Origin: a virus
Virus record (IMG/VR): IMGVR_UViG_3300005095_000152
Location: 1 to 40,632 of that record
Length of the DNA stretch: 40,632 bases
Direction: 5' to 3' (one strand)
Shown here piece by piece: positions 5,086-40,632 of the stretch. A model generated the notes under the pieces. The model did no database searches, was not told the DNA's origin, and saw nothing but the letters and a program-made list of their open reading frames with translations. The first letter of the stretch is position 1. Each line of letters opens with the position of its first letter. The position numbers and the translations under genes are program-made.

Positions 5086-5107
5086 AGTGTCTCCTTTCTG
5101 TTGTTAT

Positions 5108-5136
5108 ATTATAATTATATCCTAATTAACCTTAAA
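5108..5136 (-). promoter_or_regulatory. Promoter of the xre-to-nrdA operon
   Basis: Read on the minus strand: TTTAAG (5136-5131), 11 nt, TATAAT (5119-5114), followed by a second TATAAT one base later. The xre start lies about 28 bp downstream. If the second TATAAT is the true -10, then TTTAAG sits 17 nt upstream, at a normal -35 distance. The same arrangement occurs at most operon heads in this genome. Confidence 0.8.
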
Positions 5137-5178
5137 GATAGGTTAAATTAGACGAAATTCAATTTTAAGCGATTGAAT

Positions 5179-5208
5179 GATTAACTCGAGTATTTCATCG
5201 AGTTAATC
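5179..5208. promoter_or_regulatory. 30-bp perfect palindrome, copy B
   Basis: GATTAACTCGA (5179-5189) and TCGAGTTAATC (5198-5208) are perfect inverse complements around an 8-nt centre. It lies about 55 nt past the dpdA stop and about 43 nt upstream of the xre promoter. Conserved in copy A with one wobble-compatible change. It is either a transcript 3' hairpin or an operator. Confidence 0.68.
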
Positions 5209-5261
5209 TTTAAAACGGTAATTTACCGTGTTTTCGCCTCTTAGAATCTGGATGTATTGAG

Positions 5262-6035
5262 TTAAACCAATCGATTCATATAGTCAAGGTTATCCTCGAC
5301 ATATCTCATTGTATGAGCCGATACATTTCTTACATCGAAGTTTACAGGTTTATCGAACTTGACATATATATCCTGCACCCTCTTCTGATGAATACCATAC
5401 CAGGCTGCAGCTGAAGTATCCCAGCTATTGATAATCCAGTGAAAAGGTTTAACCAGAGCAATCTCCTGAACTGTATCAAGCATACCCAGCATATGTACTC
5501 TACCTACAAGTACATCGCTGTAAACATTAGCTAAAGTGGCTAATACTTTGTAGCGTGCTACCAGTCTATCAATCTGACCAAGCTTGTAAGCTTTAGGAGC
5601 TCCGAGAATAGAGCATCCAATCAAATCAATGTCAGGATTATGCAACGCCCACTGCCAAGATTTATAGTAGCCTTCCGTGTCACCTTCTTCTGACTGAGGT
5701 ACATAGAAAGTCTTGTATCCAGCCTCTTTAAACATAGGAATATACTTCTCAGCAGCCTCTTTAGTTTTCTCCCAATGCTCGCCAGGATAGTCTGGAAGAA
5801 CTATATATGTAGCTCCTACTTCCTCAGCGAGCTCAAGGAGTCTCTCCGGTTCATAAGGTTCTCCAAGTTCGAAAGCTCCATTATCCATAATAGTTTCAAG
5901 AGGCGAACTTTTATAGAACTCTGCATAGCCTTCTACTTTACCTATAAGGTGAGCGAGAACCAGATTAATCTGGCTCGCTCTATGCGCTTCGTGGATCGTA
6001 GCCAAAGGGCTAATATGTGCTAACTTGATACTCAT
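5262..6035 (-). CDS. dpdA: DpdA: 7-deazaguanine DNA transglycosylase (TGT family)
   Basis: DpdA enzymes exchange guanine in DNA for a 7-deazaguanine base. This 257-aa protein has a TGT-like TIM-barrel signature: M-D51-N-G-A-F-E, then V-L-P-D82-Y-P-G-E, an S-I-L-G segment and G-R-V-H-M-L-G. D51 and D82 are the likely catalytic acids, by analogy with tRNA-guanine transglycosylase. It lacks the zinc-binding Cys cluster of bacterial TGT and is much shorter, as expected for phage DpdA. Its ATG overlaps the stop of the QueD-like gene (ATGA), so the two are coupled. With queD, queE and folE it forms a DNA hypermodification pathway against restriction enzymes. The exact DpdA subfamily cannot be assigned by eye. 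Confidence 0.85.
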   Translation of the reverse strand: MSIKLAHISPLATIHEAHRASQINLVLAHLIGKVEGYAEFYKSSPLETIMDNGAFELGEPYEPERLLELAEEVGATYIVLPDYPGEHWEKTKEAAEKYIPMFKEAGYKTFYVPQSEEGDTEGYYKSWQWALHNPDIDLIGCSILGAPKAYKLGQIDRLVARYKVLATLANVYSDVLVGRVHMLGMLDTVQEIALVKPFHWIINSWDTSAAAWYGIHQKRVQDIYVKFDKPVNFDVRNVSAHTMRYVEDNLDYMNRLV

Positions 6036-6385
6036 AGTAAAGGCTCCGCTACTACAATTGCTCCGTTCTCTCCATCTTCAAGAACTTCACAGCTTTTCAA
6101 CTCATAGTTACGAATGAGCATCTCAGCAATATCCTCGCAGCTGCTGTTACCAAAGTCGCACATACGCTTATCTTTGTCATAGAACTCATTCTCAATAGCT
6201 AATTGCATCTCGTGCTTAAGCTTAATGAACTCGATATCTCTATCATTGTGAGTTACTTCCTTCACTGCATTGATGTGAAAGATGTGTCTGTGTGGCGTTG
6301 CAAGATAGTTAACCTCTGCAATATCGCAATTTGCCCAGTGATGTAGGCCCTCAATCTCTAAGTGTACTTTAATGTATTTTCTCAT
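6032..6385 (-). CDS. QueD-like T-fold protein; candidate deazaguanine-tailoring enzyme (DpdL-like)
   Basis: The ATG at 6385 is chosen because it follows the queE stop by one base, with AAGGAAGA upstream. The protein has 117 aa. It carries H15-H16-W, then P-H32-R-H34-x-F-H37, then H46-N-D-R, S-C83-E-D-I-A-E and E-D-G-E-N-G. This looks like a diverged member of the QueD/6-pyruvoyl-tetrahydropterin synthase T-fold superfamily, distinct from the canonical QueD in the same operon. Its position between queE and dpdA, coupled on both sides, and the absence of QueC argue that it acts on 7-carboxy-7-deazaguanine or on the modified base. It could be the decarboxylase step (called DpdL in the literature), giving 7-deazaguanine; I am not certain of the published DpdL sequence. 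Confidence 0.62.
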   Translation of the reverse strand: MRKYIKVHLEIEGLHHWANCDIAEVNYLATPHRHIFHINAVKEVTHNDRDIEFIKLKHEMQLAIENEFYDKDKRMCDFGNSSCEDIAEMLIRNYELKSCEVLEDGENGAIVVAEPLL

Positions 6386-6386
6386 C

Positions 6387-7112
6387 TTATCTTCCTTGTT
6401 CGTCGTTGTAAATTCTAATATGCTGTCTGTCTGAGTATTTAAAACCAAGACGCATACACTCCTCAAAAACCATTCTACTTGTCTGCTCAAGCTGAGCTGA
6501 TGTCTCACCTAACGGCATTAAGTATACATCTGCATAGTACGGTACCTCCTTCAATAGTTCTGAAGCCTCTGCTACATCATCCTCAGAGCCGCATACAAAC
6601 TTAAAGAAGCTATCATCTGTATAGCTAAGTATGTTATTGATAGCTCCAAGGTTGATTCTCTTATGCTCAGGCTCTCCGCTACAAGTAAGTTTTACGCTCA
6701 TAGCAAAGCTAACTCTTTTATAGATAGGCAACCTATCAAAGTCTATTACTTGCGTAGCATTTGTTTCGAACTGAACTTTGTGCCCTCTTGTAGCATAATA
6801 AGTTACAAACAAAGCAAGCTGCTCTACATATAGTGTAGGCTCTCCTCCGGTAACTATTACCATAGGCTTGTCCAGACTTGCTGGATACTTAGGCATCTTC
6901 TCGTTTACCTGCTCTATTAGCTCCTCAACGCTATAAGTCTTCCATTTGCGCCTAAAGCTCTTAGCATCTACGCTGAAGTAAGAATCACAGCCATTAGGTC
7001 CAAAGCCTGGACAAGTTAAGTTACATCCCCCTACTCTGACAAACACAGCAGGGAAGCCGGCATACTTACCTTCTCCCTGCAGTGTGTAGAATATCTCGCT
7101 GATAGGTACCAT
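6387..7112 (-). CDS. queE: 7-carboxy-7-deazaguanine synthase (radical SAM)
   Basis: QueE converts 6-carboxy-tetrahydropterin to 7-carboxy-7-deazaguanine with S-adenosylmethionine and a [4Fe-4S] cluster. The N-terminus has S-E-I-F-Y-T-L-Q-G-E-G, the substrate/SAM signature. The cluster cysteines are C30-x3-C34-x7-C42, followed by a D-S pair. T-G-G-E-P-T is the SAM-binding GGE motif. The spacing differs from the radical-SAM standard CX3CX2C. It resembles campylobacterial QueE, where GCNL-x-C is followed by an insert and then GCDS. Length 241 aa. Its start overlaps the queD stop (TAATG). Confidence 0.93.
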   Translation of the reverse strand: MVPISEIFYTLQGEGKYAGFPAVFVRVGGCNLTCPGFGPNGCDSYFSVDAKSFRRKWKTYSVEELIEQVNEKMPKYPASLDKPMVIVTGGEPTLYVEQLALFVTYYATRGHKVQFETNATQVIDFDRLPIYKRVSFAMSVKLTCSGEPEHKRINLGAINNILSYTDDSFFKFVCGSEDDVAEASELLKEVPYYADVYLMPLGETSAQLEQTSRMVFEECMRLGFKYSDRQHIRIYNDEQGR

Positions 7113-7648
7113 TACTTAGCTCCCATATAGATAGATTGAGACTTAGGAGTTTCATTGAAGATAACACTACTAACTTTGACTCCAAGTCCTGCCATCTTCT
7201 TAGAAGCTATATCATAGAACCAGCGAGCTATCTCCTCCGAAGTAGGGACGAAGTCTACTACTACGAATGACTCTCTTAGCTCATTACCAATCGGGTCATT
7301 GTCCAGTAGAGGAACTATCTTAAACTTAGCTCCTTCATACTCCATATCAATCAACTCTGACTTAGGCGTATTGGTAATCTGCTCAAATAGAGGGTCGTTA
7401 ATGTCGATGATAAATTTATGGTCAATCACCGTATCGATGAACTGCTTGAACCAGTTAAGGTGCTTAAAGTCTGTCACCATACTGCTGTCGTCAAGTGTTT
7501 CACCTTCCAGCTCAATCTTGACACTCATACGATGACCGTGCAGGTGTCTACATACCAAGCAGTTATCTATGCTATACTCTGCATTTAGTTTCTGCGCATG
7601 TACTCTATGACCGTAGTCACACTCGAATTGTTTACTTATTCTCCACAT
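7112..7648 (-). CDS. queD: 6-carboxy-5,6,7,8-tetrahydropterin synthase
   Basis: QueD turns dihydroneopterin triphosphate, the FolE product, into 6-carboxy-tetrahydropterin. The active site is visible: G-H14-R-V-H17, then C33-x3-H37-G-H39, the classic CxxxHGH motif with catalytic Cys and zinc histidines, then T-D-F-K-H, D-H-K-F, P-T-S-E-E and a late glutamate in F-N-E-T. At 178 aa it is longer than the usual 120-140 aa, with an insertion around residues 95-130. It overlaps the end of the DUF5664-PRTase gene by 17 nt and is followed by queE. Confidence 0.93.
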   Translation of the reverse strand: MWRISKQFECDYGHRVHAQKLNAEYSIDNCLVCRHLHGHRMSVKIELEGETLDDSSMVTDFKHLNWFKQFIDTVIDHKFIIDINDPLFEQITNTPKSELIDMEYEGAKFKIVPLLDNDPIGNELRESFVVVDFVPTSEEIARWFYDIASKKMAGLGVKVSSVIFNETPKSQSIYMGAK

Positions 7649-8369
7649 CTTGAACCTCCCAGTAAAATGTTATATAATCATCTGTCATAATCTCTCTTGC
7701 CGCTCTTACATCAAAGTTTTTAGTGTCTGCATTGTATCTCTTGAACAGAGACAGAATAGGATACTGCACAGTAGCTGGCATATACTTTCTGAGTGTGTTA
7801 CCAGTATCTACGATATCATCCACAATAAATCTTTGTGTAATACCGTGCACATCAACAAGGTAATCTTGACCAATAGCTACTATATCTACTCGCTTAACAC
7901 CTTGAATAGTTAAAGCTTCTGCAAGTTTATCTGCTACATACTTGCCGCTTGCAGGGATGTAATGTAGAACCACTCTATCGAAGCTATAAGTTCTAATATG
8001 AGCAGCAAGCTTGCTACATAGTTTATTTACCTCATCCTCAGATACAAATACGTCTGACGACTTAGCTATATCTGCACCTGCATAGTGCTTATTCTTCTTA
8101 TCAAGTGCAAGCAGAAAACCTAAGTTCGTAGCTGCATGCGCAAGGTGAGGTAGACCAGACTCAGGGTCAAAATACTCACCTTTTCTATACGCTTCAAGAT
8201 GTCGCATAGCTGCACCTACGAATCTACCATAATCCTCTTCTTTAGCTTTACGCCAAGCATTGGGAGCATATTTATTAGCTCCAAATGTCAATACTCTACC
8301 TACCTCTTCAATCAGTTCAGTAGGTATAAGCTCAAGTCTGTTTTTGTACTTATCGTTCTTTAGTTCCAT
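7632..8369 (-). CDS. DUF5664 (MazG/MazZ-like dNTP pyrophosphohydrolase) fused to a phosphoribosyltransferase
   Basis: The ATG at 8369 follows AAGGAT and lies one base after the previous stop. A longer reading frame upstream would overlap the preceding gene. Of 245 aa, residues 8-90 match the DUF5664 pattern: R-L-E-L-I-P, F-G-A-N-K-Y-A-P-N-A-W-R, R-H-L-E-A-Y and L-P-H-L-A-H-A-A-T-N-L. This family is related to MazG and to the dATP/dGTP pyrophosphohydrolase MazZ. Residues 125-200 look like a type I phosphoribosyltransferase with the PRPP loop F-I-V-D-D-I-V-D-T-G-N-T (181-192). It sits directly before queD, so a role in purine or deazapurine nucleotide pools is suggested. Substrates are unknown. 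Confidence 0.8.
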   Translation of the reverse strand: MELKNDKYKNRLELIPTELIEEVGRVLTFGANKYAPNAWRKAKEEDYGRFVGAAMRHLEAYRKGEYFDPESGLPHLAHAATNLGFLLALDKKNKHYAGADIAKSSDVFVSEDEVNKLCSKLAAHIRTYSFDRVVLHYIPASGKYVADKLAEALTIQGVKRVDIVAIGQDYLVDVHGITQRFIVDDIVDTGNTLRKYMPATVQYPILSLFKRYNADTKNFDVRAAREIMTDDYITFYWEVQDVENK

Positions 8370-8370
8370 A

Positions 8371-9189
8371 TTACAATCCTTGTACGAATGGGCATTTGCT
8401 GTAGTAGCCACACCAGTCTTTACTACATAAAAAGTATGCATACTTATTAGTTCCTCTGAACAACGCTGGGTCTCCTGTCTCGTAGAACTTCTCTGTCACA
8501 TCAAGAATCTGGTTGATTACATTCTTAGCATAGTCAATCTTAGGAGCTAATGCAAGTCTCTCTACACCTTTACCTCTAATGACATTGTGAATCTCATTGA
8601 AGTTAGATACCTCACCATTCTGTTGTCTTAGCCAGGTATAAGTAGACTGCTGCAGTACATACTTATCTGGACTTGTTTTACGCTTCGTATGCTTAAGGTC
8701 TACTACTCCTCTATCCAAAACAATATCCAGCGTACCTGAGATATCCTCAAACACAGGGTGGTCAAGTTTAACTGTGTATCTCTTCTCTACATCAATAGGG
8801 TCAGTGATAGGCATCAAGTCTTCATAGTAGTCTTTCATACCTTTAATGAGGTCATTCTCATAAGTATAGTAATCTTCACCTTTGCCATACTCAAAGTCAT
8901 TCTCCTCATTTAGCTTCTTCCACTCCTCAGCTACTACATCAGTAAGAAAGCTTACCGGAGGTAGCTGACCGAGCTTAATCTTATCCTTATAGCCCATCTC
9001 TGCACCTTTATGCAAACTCGTACCAGCCACAGCAGCTGCTGCAGGTCTCTGAAAGTCCCCTCTGATTTGAGCTTGGTACCACTGAAATGGACATCCAAGA
9101 AACTGTTGAAGTGACGAAGGTCTAAGTCTTAGCTTGCCCTCATTCTTAATCTTATCTTTTAGCTCTTCTAAATCTACACCGTATAACAT
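8371..9189 (-). CDS. PD-(D/E)XK exonuclease of the RecB/Cas4 type with Fe-S cysteines
   Basis: The 272-aa protein fits the PDDEXK_1 superfamily: G-T-S-L-H-K-G near residue 55, then G-T-L-D-I-V-L-D and V-V-D-L-K-H (about 150-165) for metal binding and catalysis. C33 and the C-terminal C255, C260 and C266 are placed like the four cysteines that hold a [4Fe-4S] cluster in AddB and Cas4 nucleases. It probably works as a replication or recombination exonuclease. AAGGAG precedes its ATG, and its start overlaps the end of the upstream gene by one base. Confidence 0.87.
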   Translation of the reverse strand: MLYGVDLEELKDKIKNEGKLRLRPSSLQQFLGCPFQWYQAQIRGDFQRPAAAAVAGTSLHKGAEMGYKDKIKLGQLPPVSFLTDVVAEEWKKLNEENDFEYGKGEDYYTYENDLIKGMKDYYEDLMPITDPIDVEKRYTVKLDHPVFEDISGTLDIVLDRGVVDLKHTKRKTSPDKYVLQQSTYTWLRQQNGEVSNFNEIHNVIRGKGVERLALAPKIDYAKNVINQILDVTEKFYETGDPALFRGTNKYAYFLCSKDWCGYYSKCPFVQGL

Positions 9190-39390: not shown

Positions 39391-40050
39391 TTACACCTCC
39401 GTAGTAAACATACAATCTTGGTTTTTTACGCCTCTATACATCTCACAGCTGTGAGCAGCTTCAATAGTTACCTGAACGTGATCATCAGGTACATCGGCAG
39501 CCTCTTTGATAATTCTATGCAGCTGAACAGTGAGGTCCTCTTGCAAGTGGAATCTATTACCTATATAGTTAGCTAACCTCTGAAGCTTGCTGATACCTAA
39601 TACAAAGTCGTTAGGTTTATACTTGATGACAGCCTTACCTACAAAAGGTAGAAAGTGATGACTGCAGGTAGAGATAATTCTAACCTCTTTAGTAATCCAG
39701 TTGCTCCCATTGTTATTAGGGAATTTAGGTAATCGTACAGGCTTACTGAATCTACCACCACCAAGCTCTGTATCGCAAGCTAAGCTATCGCCACACCACA
39801 CTTTAGCTATTCGCTTAGGTGTCTCTGCTGTGTTATCATCTTCCTTGATGAGCATCAGAGCGAATGCCTCTTTTAGCTTCTGCTCAACTAACCATCTCAT
39901 AAGTCTATGAGCATCTTCGGTAATCTCCTGACCAGTCTCGAACACATTACCATCAGCTTTAAACGCTTTAAGCTCTTTATATTCAAAGTATGCCTTCTCT
40001 ACTCTTTCAAGTGACCATCCAAGGTCAGCTGCTGCTTTCTTATTGTTCAT
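39391..40050 (-). CDS. folE: GTP cyclohydrolase I
   Basis: Makes dihydroneopterin triphosphate from GTP, the first step toward 7-deazaguanine. The ATG at 40050 has GGAG six bases upstream, inside the end of the dUTPase-like gene. The 219-aa protein has the zinc triad C129-S-H131-H132 (C-S-H-H-F-L-P-F) and C202 (A-H-S-C-E-M-Y-R-G), and K-P-x-x-F-V-L-G-I-S-K-L-Q-R-L-A typical of FolE. Together with queD and queE it lets the phage make its own deazaguanine rather than rely on host precursor. Confidence 0.95.
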   Translation of the reverse strand: MNNKKAAADLGWSLERVEKAYFEYKELKAFKADGNVFETGQEITEDAHRLMRWLVEQKLKEAFALMLIKEDDNTAETPKRIAKVWCGDSLACDTELGGGRFSKPVRLPKFPNNNGSNWITKEVRIISTCSHHFLPFVGKAVIKYKPNDFVLGISKLQRLANYIGNRFHLQEDLTVQLHRIIKEAADVPDDHVQVTIEAAHSCEMYRGVKNQDCMFTTEV

Positions 40051-40510
40051 TGTAATCTCCTTCATATAGTTTGTATGTATCAGCTTGAGCAAGCATGAAC
40101 TGCCCTACTCTTGCACCTTTAGCTATCTTAGCTGCCCAAGGGGTAGTATTGAAAATAGTTCCGTTAACACCTCCTTTGTATCCTGCGTCATATAGAGCGC
40201 TCTGAACTATTACTCCGTTACGCTGAAGAGTTGAACGACCAATAATCCAGCCACACTCATTCTGAGCCATCTCTACTTTATGTACTGTATCAAACTGATA
40301 TAATGTACCAGGTAGCAGTACAAACGTACCATTTTCATCTGGATAGATTTCGTGCTTGTCTCTATGTACTTTACTATCCTCGTGAAGTTCAAACTCTCCA
40401 GTAAGTGCATATACTCTATCGATACGAATATCCACAGTATGCATCTGCACCATAGCCTCATCTACATTAGTTAGTTTAGTCTTGCCAGACATCTTAATAT
40501 GCTTAAACAT
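40040..40510 (-). CDS. dUTPase / dCTP deaminase family protein
   Basis: 156 aa of the trimeric dUTPase fold. Visible motifs are V-D-I-R-I-D-R near the N-terminus, G-R-S-T-L-Q-R-N-G-V (motif 2), A-L-Y-D-A-G-Y-K-G-G-V (motif 3 region) and G-A-R-V-G-Q-F-M-L (motif 4). It would make dUMP from dUTP, or dUTP from dCTP; the D-A-G-Y-K-G segment fits either, so substrate is open. GAAGGAGAAGCTT precedes the ATG. First gene of the folE-nrdB operon. Confidence 0.88.
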   Translation of the reverse strand: MFKHIKMSGKTKLTNVDEAMVQMHTVDIRIDRVYALTGEFELHEDSKVHRDKHEIYPDENGTFVLLPGTLYQFDTVHKVEMAQNECGWIIGRSTLQRNGVIVQSALYDAGYKGGVNGTIFNTTPWAAKIAKGARVGQFMLAQADTYKLYEGDYNEQ

Positions 40511-40538
40511 AAGCTTCTCCTTCTGTTGTTATATTATA

Positions 40539-40561
40539 ATTATAGCCTAATTAAACTTAAA
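40539..40561 (-). promoter_or_regulatory. Promoter of the dUTPase-folE-nrdB operon
   Basis: Minus strand: TTTAAG (40561-40556), 11 nt, TATAAT (40544-40539), followed directly by a second TATAAT (40538-40533). Part of repeat copy A, and nearly identical to the xre promoter. Confidence 0.8.
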
Positions 40562-40632
40562 GAAAGGTTAAATTAGACGAAATCCAATTTTAAGCCGTTT
40601 AATGATTAACTCGAGTATTTCATCAAGTTAAT

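Follow-up and report, generated by a model that had tools for sequence, protein, structure and literature searches.

The deazaguanine locus

The stretch of viral DNA analyzed here, the IMG/VR record IMGVR_UViG_3300005095_000152 (40,632 bases, the whole of which is referred to below as the window), carries genes for the synthesis of 7-carboxy-7-deazaguanine (CDG), a putative DNA-guanine transglycosylase and, between them, a gene for a protein of 117 amino acids (aa) that we consider a candidate CDG decarboxylase. The first and last 91 bases of the window are identical, and because of this exact direct terminal repeat, the genome is taken as complete. The genes queD, queE, the 117-aa gene and dpdA are contiguous, all on the minus strand, whereby queD and queE share one base (TAATG), queE and the 117-aa gene are separated by a one-base gap, and the 117-aa gene overlaps dpdA by 4 bases (ATGA); folE lies in a second operon, along with a dCTP deaminase/dUTPase-like gene and nrdB. 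The coordinates confirm this arrangement, which had been noted in a preliminary description of the same DNA.

5262..6035, minus strand: dpdA, 257 aa, putative DNA-guanine transglycosylase, DpdA3-like (immuto/CP220 group) (AlphaFold2 (AF2) model, Foldseek, tblastn)
6032..6385, minus strand: 117-aa T-fold protein of the phrog_17812 family, candidate CDG decarboxylase (AF2 model, hhalign, residues)
6387..7112, minus strand: queE, 241 aa, 7-carboxy-7-deazaguanine synthase (phrog_2076, PDB matches, cysteines)
7112..7648, minus strand: queD, 178 aa, 6-carboxytetrahydropterin synthase (PF01242, 3jyg, catalytic residues)
39391..40092, minus strand: folE, GTP cyclohydrolase I (PF01227; second operon)

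The QueD protein matched PF01242 (E = 8.5e-27) and Wolinella WS1659 (PDB 3jyg; E = 7.7e-50), and its catalytic set is complete (H, C33, H37, H39, D76, H77 and E166). QueE matched phrog_2076 (E = 5.8e-56) and the solved QueE structures 6nhl and 4njg and, in the alignment, keeps the three cluster cysteines C30, C34 and C42; FolE was assigned at the family level (PF01227, E = 9.9e-34). That these three enzymes jointly yield CDG is established biochemistry (PMC13329287, PMC6884629). There was no match to QueC (PF06508) anywhere in the complete genome, and Pfam scans of 20 further proteins of the window, a set without the small open reading frames (ORFs), revealed no glutamine amidotransferase, QueF or ArcS. 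Thus, the preliminary claims that QueC and an amidotransferase are missing held up within this scope, and the route that had been outlined, from FolE, QueD and QueE to CDG and on to insertion by DpdA with no preQ0 step, is well supported by the gene identities.

Neither DpdA nor the 117-aa protein matched any Pfam family, DpdA having no significant match in PHROG either, and therefore both assignments rest on structure. For DpdA, an AF2 model with pLDDT 94.1 retrieved only tRNA-guanine transglycosylases (TGT) among the top 50 PDB matches in Foldseek (E = 1e-7 to 1e-6). Its relatives in tblastn searches included a gene of Flavobacterium phage immuto annotated as 'DNA guanine transglycosylase' and gp056 of Campylobacter phage CP220 (E = 1e-3 to 8e-3), which a DpdA profile found at E = 1.3e-31 and 1.5e-20, respectively; D51, D82, S142, H181, G184 and D206 are invariant among 13 diverse relatives. 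By its fold and these sequence relatives, the protein appears to be a DpdA-type DNA-guanine transglycosylase of the immuto/Campylobacter-phage group, which we take to be the subfamily named DpdA3. The family PF01702 was tried as a detector of alternative TGTs in the relatives and abandoned, as it matched nowhere, not even in records with an accepted DpdA; this model is therefore blind to these DpdAs.

A predicted QueD-like fold with a probable change in the active site

The start of the 117-aa gene at position 6385 coincides with the start of the family alignment; a longer ORF starting with GTG (158 aa) extends into queE. No NCBIfam model matched the product, the sole family match was to phrog_17812 (function unassigned; E = 2e-21), and sequence matches to bacterioferritin and PYST-C1 were discarded as being at chance level. 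In the AF2 model, built from 42 sequences (pLDDT 93.9, pTM 0.84), the long elements are ordered strand-strand-helix-helix-strand-strand, as in the T-fold. E. coli QueD ranked first in the PDB comparison (E = 6.4e-6, TM 0.71, 17% identity), and all 25 PDB matches at E ≤ 0.001 are QueD/PTPS. Comparison of the 117-aa family with phage QueD by hhalign gave a probability of 93.8% (E = 1.8e-7) and paired the SCE motif with the T/G-S/C-E motif of QueD and E103 with the base-anchoring Glu. Structure prediction and profile comparison thus agree on a QueD-like T-fold, as previously suggested from the sequence, and the protein did not turn out to be unrelated to T-fold enzymes.

Among 34 dereplicated T-fold sequences, H15, L28, H32, H34, F36, R49, E52, S82, C83, E84 and E103 are invariant. 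H15, H32 and H34 are predicted to form a zinc site, and E103 would be the base anchor. The family has PHRH where QueD has C-x3-HGH, and L28 (34/34), as placed by the HxH motif, probably occupies the position of the catalytic Cys27 of QueD. With leucine at this position throughout the family, 6-carboxytetrahydropterin (CPH4) synthase activity is unlikely for the 117-aa protein. Retention of the zinc site and base anchor combined with loss of the acid-base cysteine looks like the signature of a T-fold enzyme whose ligand resembles a pterin or deazaguanine but whose reaction differs from that of QueD.

Distribution of the T-fold family and alternation with QueC

The 117-aa gene is not peculiar to this phage but belongs to a large, unnamed viral family that is represented in at least ~600 IMG/VR stretches and in 27 phage records, annotated 'hypothetical' where inspected. 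The neighbors at 105 T-fold loci include FolE (~75), QueE (43), QueD (37) and a GT4-like glycosyltransferase (94-96). After dereplication at 80% identity, which yielded 33 clusters, a DpdA-like gene was present within ~6 kb in 28/33 loci, and FolE, QueD or QueE in 30/33. The DpdA3-like type occurs at 7 T-fold loci as well as in the window and in Bakedbeans; two other transglycosylase-like types were distinguished, one of ~520 aa with a DSGGFQ motif (74 T-fold loci) and one of ~420 aa with DSGGLQ (phrog_10773; 15 T-fold loci). In profile comparisons, these two were strongly linked to each other (97.5%, E = 6e-12) and more weakly to DpdA3 (75% and 58%), so that, given these links and the TGT-like motifs, both are probable transglycosylases.

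In 37 records chosen by T-fold or DpdA3 matches, the T-fold gene was present in 32, with full-length QueC in 0/32, and the four full QueC genes in this set (122-180 bits) were all in records without a T-fold gene. In the reverse test, with records chosen only by the other two transglycosylase types, a T-fold gene was found in 25/25 and full QueC in 0/25; among full-flank loci of these two types, 25/25 and 23/24 had the T-fold gene. The T-fold gene was found in none (0/12) of 12 further deazaguanine phages (9g, CAjan, Dp-1, nt-1, phi38:2, phiSM, HVTV-1, Motura, MaInes, Quesadilla, NCTB and Bipper), ten of which had strong QueC matches, NCTB a weak one and Bipper none. When all records were pooled, 57 had the T-fold gene but no canonical QueC and 0 had both, whereas of those without the T-fold gene, 3 lacked and 14 had QueC (Fisher p = 1.5e-12; within DpdA3 alone, 10/0 vs. 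1/4, p = 0.004, both p-values being indicative only, the records being related rather than independent). In at least three lineages, transglycosylase modules that lack QueC are almost invariably accompanied by a member of the T-fold family.

Neighboring genes and genomic context

Two further features adjoin the cluster:

7632..8441, minus strand: fusion of a dATP/dGTP diphosphohydrolase and a xanthine-guanine-type phosphoribosyltransferase (PRTase) (PF18909, PF00156, phrog_8995)
5096..5267, strand not assigned: intergenic element just downstream of dpdA, similar to an element at the genome ends

The fusion gene (PF18909, E = 2.6e-28; PF00156, E = 3.4e-5; phrog_8995, E = 1.7e-5) overlaps the queD start and is probably part of the same operon, as its first gene or at least ahead of queD; its PRTase motif reads, in our own reading of the sequence, as xanthine-guanine type, and a role in guanine recycling or dGTP control may be envisaged. 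PRTases recur near deazaguanine genes of relatives (L092:1447-1905, L085:7178-7609, L109:5840-6232), where they could recycle the guanine released by DpdA or ribosylate CDG, as does TubE, the CDG-specific PRTase of tubercidin synthesis (PMC6112128). The intergenic element is 89-93% identical to one that spans the genome ends (40521-40632 and 1-151); both copies lie upstream of a minus-strand gene, and the element is probably an operon boundary or promoter.

The closest relatives of the portal protein and DNA polymerase come from Pseudoalteromonas phage PH1, Edwardsiella phage KF-1 and Vibrio phage VPMS1 (39-57% identity). The PH1 segment examined has no annotated que genes, and none of the three phages matched in the T-fold or DpdA searches, suggesting that the deazaguanine cassette was gained within the lineage of the window phage.

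The most constant neighbor of T-fold genes is the GT4-like (GT-B) glycosyltransferase (e.g. L085:4849-5907, L088:5363-6451 and L092:6355-7518), which accompanies them in most lineages (among full-flank loci, in 25/25 for one type of transglycosylase and in 23/24 for a second) but not in DpdA3-type loci. It was not found in the flanks examined in the window phage, phiST, MA9V-3, Rhizobium phage RHph_I1_18, D479, Ahp1 and Bakedbeans. Synechococcus phage BUCT-ZZ01 and Pseudomonas phage PA5oct have it. In DpdA3-type phages, the T-fold domain is fused or adjacent to an AAA_18/nucleotide-kinase-like domain (L002:6001-6966, L082:7302-7799, BFVD A0A8S5V119), and a kinase near DpdA also occurs in D479, where QueD was not detected, in immuto and in CP220. 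In Faecalibacterium phage Roos (L084, positions 6001-7899), the T-fold gene is followed by a phrog_887 transglycosylase and a Vut_1/YhhQ-type queuosine-precursor-type transporter; FolE, QueD and QueE were not found in this phage, which is suggestive of a salvage version. Bacterial and archaeal contigs, including Magnetospirillum (L153-L155, L157, L158, L164, L165), combine a T-fold gene and a glycosyltransferase, often with transglycosylase genes, and could represent prophages, virus contamination or a cellular system; in L158, a radical SAM-SPASM gene adjoins the T-fold gene. The QueE gene at L013:8685-10532 has an insertion of ~300 residues between the cluster cysteines that is intein-like in appearance.

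Proposed pathway and alternatives

We propose that FolE, QueD and QueE would convert GTP into CDG; that the 117-aa zinc T-fold protein, acting in QueC's stead on the free base, would strip the carboxyl group through protonation at C7 and loss of CO2, yielding 7-deazaguanine; and that DpdA would swap guanine in DNA for this base, making the virion DNA, with 2'-deoxy-7-deazaguanosine (dDG), restriction-resistant. Taken as a whole, this reading seems to us reasonably probable. Its conditional steps are the action of the T-fold protein on CDG, the nature of the reaction and the free base as the substrate. CDG is the most likely substrate, given that the T-fold gene stands in for QueC in genomes that also have a complete QueD, and because no nucleotide-, flavin- or S-adenosylmethionine (SAM)-binding partner is common to all loci, decarboxylation would be the simplest reaction. 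A precedent exists in the tubercidin pathway, which has no preQ0 step and in which a CDG derivative (the ribotide) is decarboxylated by the unrelated UbiD-type enzyme TubF (PMC6112128). The preliminary description had left open whether the DNA contains the deoxynucleoside of CDG (dCDG) or 7-deazaguanine; since the strict alternation of the T-fold gene with QueC across DpdA lineages points to an enzyme acting on CDG, it favors dDG, whereas dCDG loses ground.

Several points weigh against this pathway. Decarboxylation is drawn from pathway logic. The GT4-like glycosyltransferase at ~90% of T-fold loci sits uneasily with an unsubstituted C7-H product and hints at one that is open to glycosylation; bare 7-deazaguanine has no C7 oxygen, so that the sugar could be attached by C-glycosylation at the exposed C7 or at another site, or else the T-fold product could be a different one. 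The T-fold gene of Roos occurs without FolE, QueD and QueE, so its substrate need not be self-made CDG. Finally, PF06508 matched parts of proteins in five T-fold records (G005, G007, G025, G031 and D479), in some cases above the Pfam cut-off. A hidden QueC was considered for these records and rejected: the matches were read as diverged, QueC-like PP-loop proteins in which VPxRN and YPDC are missing, two motifs that are essential in canonical QueC (PMC13329287) and are both present in the QueC of immuto. Diverged QueC-like PP-loop proteins (L339, L340, L341, L342, L343) show SGGxDS and, behind a cluster of cysteines toward the C terminus, ERxWAF; VPxRN and YPDC are absent from them.

Insertion of CDG itself, with dCDG in the virion DNA and the T-fold protein merely binding, delivering or protecting CDG or an intermediate, appears unlikely. 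FolE, QueD, QueE and DpdA would suffice for it, no other tailoring gene is present, and there seem to be minimal systems of this sort: in Mycobacterium phage Bipper, for which CDG was proposed by Hutinet 2019 (PMC6884629), neither QueC nor the T-fold protein was found. However, Bipper by the same token suggests that dCDG-type systems can do without a T-fold protein, the near-obligate presence of this protein in other QueC-less systems points to an essential step, and the invariant predicted metal site with several invariant polar residues looks catalytic.

It is similarly improbable that the T-fold protein catalyzes another reaction on CDG that leaves a C7 group, to be glycosylated in most relatives, with the window phage stopping earlier. 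The T-fold enzymes QueF and QueF-like modify the C7 group of preQ0, and a glycosyltransferase is present in 94-96 of the 105 T-fold loci. Yet neither a cofactor-binding domain nor a reductase partner was found, the nearest fold is that of QueD rather than QueF, and several phages have no glycosyltransferase in the flanks examined, so that the T-fold product must be usable without one.

The QueD fold and zinc histidines might indicate a second or helper QueD, either producing CPH4 itself or assembling with QueD into a mixed oligomer, the more so as the QueD of many relatives has only one of the three zinc ligands and a partner could provide the missing two. This is quite unlikely: the window QueD is complete, the catalytic Cys is lost across the T-fold family, immuto pairs a zinc-poor QueD with QueC and has no T-fold protein, and alternation with QueC is not expected of a helper QueD. 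A composite QueD, with the T-fold zinc site serving a zinc-poor QueD, was likewise ruled out by the complete window QueD and the zinc-poor QueD of immuto. Many phage QueDs carry F/Y and Y instead of two zinc histidines (FCHYDHE, YCHYDHE), e.g. those of phiST, PA5oct (second copy), ACP17, X1 and immuto; given that zinc-poor QueD occurs with or without a T-fold gene, it needs an explanation other than a T-fold partner.

Least credible is a nucleotide-level route, in which the PRTase upstream of queD joins CDG to phosphoribosyl pyrophosphate (PRPP), like TubE, to give a nucleotide that is then incorporated into DNA: although the operon encodes a PRTase domain joined to a dGTP diphosphohydrolase and PRTases recur near the deazaguanine genes of relatives, the phage has a DpdA whose acidic residues are conserved, only ~20/105 T-fold loci have a PRTase, and the xanthine-guanine-type motif is in keeping with salvage of the guanine that DpdA releases.

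The cassette for deazaguanine DNA modification in the window is thus real and complete and, although it lacks QueC, belongs to a known kind; its key unproven step is that of the putative T-fold enzyme. Three points are new: T-fold genes alternate with QueC throughout the family, they partner transglycosylases of several lineages, and they are linked to a glycosyltransferase. Beyond decarboxylation, we put forward, tentatively and with considerable doubt, a QueC-less T-fold branch of deazaguanine modification comprising at least three transglycosylase lineages; in most members of the branch, the adjacent GT4-like enzyme would glycosylate the deazaguanine in DNA, the window phage being a minimal, unglycosylated case. 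Glycosylated deazaguanine in DNA would be, to our knowledge, a hypermodified guanine without prior description. If the proposed pathway is correct, hundreds of uncharacterized viral genes would be placed in a defined biosynthetic step, the QueD scaffold would have been turned into a probable base decarboxylase, and a simple genome rule, T-fold without QueC versus QueC, would predict the DNA base. The isolated phages phiST, RHph_I1_18, BUCT-ZZ01 and PA5oct allow a direct test of this rule and of the proposed glycosylation; Roos, D479 and the glycosyltransferase loci are the best places to seek something new.

Comparison with known systems

With E. coli QueD (4ntm, 4ntk), the 117-aa protein shares the T-fold, the three zinc histidines and the base-anchoring Glu, whereas Cys27 is replaced by Leu in all relatives, identity is as low as 17%, and H46, R49, E52 and the SCE and ED motifs are conserved in the 117-aa family. 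Phages 9g, CAjan and phi38:2, of the QueC or Gat-QueC type, follow the same logic of FolE-QueD-QueE plus DpdA (PMC6884629) but form preQ0-derived products via QueC and have no T-fold protein. Flavobacterium phage immuto and Campylobacter phage CP220 share the DpdA branch along with QueD, QueE and FolE; in contrast to the window phage, both have QueC and lack the T-fold protein, and immuto additionally has a QueF-annotated gene and a formyltransferase. In Cellulophaga phage phiST (gp036-gp042), QueD, QueE and FolE occur with a T-fold homologue (gp040) and a DpdA homologue (gp042), both 'hypothetical' in GenBank, and there is no QueC in the record; the phiST cassette differs in that it also includes a MazG-like gene and one resembling AAA_18 kinases, and in that its QueD is zinc-poor (FCHYDHE).

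Cui et al. (NAR, 2023) reportedly predicted a CDG decarboxylase, DpdL, and are said to have detected dDG in phage DNA. Our literature searches for DpdL, whose scope did not extend to the 2023 paper itself, returned no relevant paper, and we know of no report from work on DpdL of the association with glycosyltransferases and multiple transglycosylase lineages. The 117-aa protein is compared with DpdL here by predicted role (CDG to 7-deazaguanine, in phages with dDG in their DNA); the window and its relatives fit the QueDE-positive, QueC-negative, DpdA-positive context expected for DpdL.

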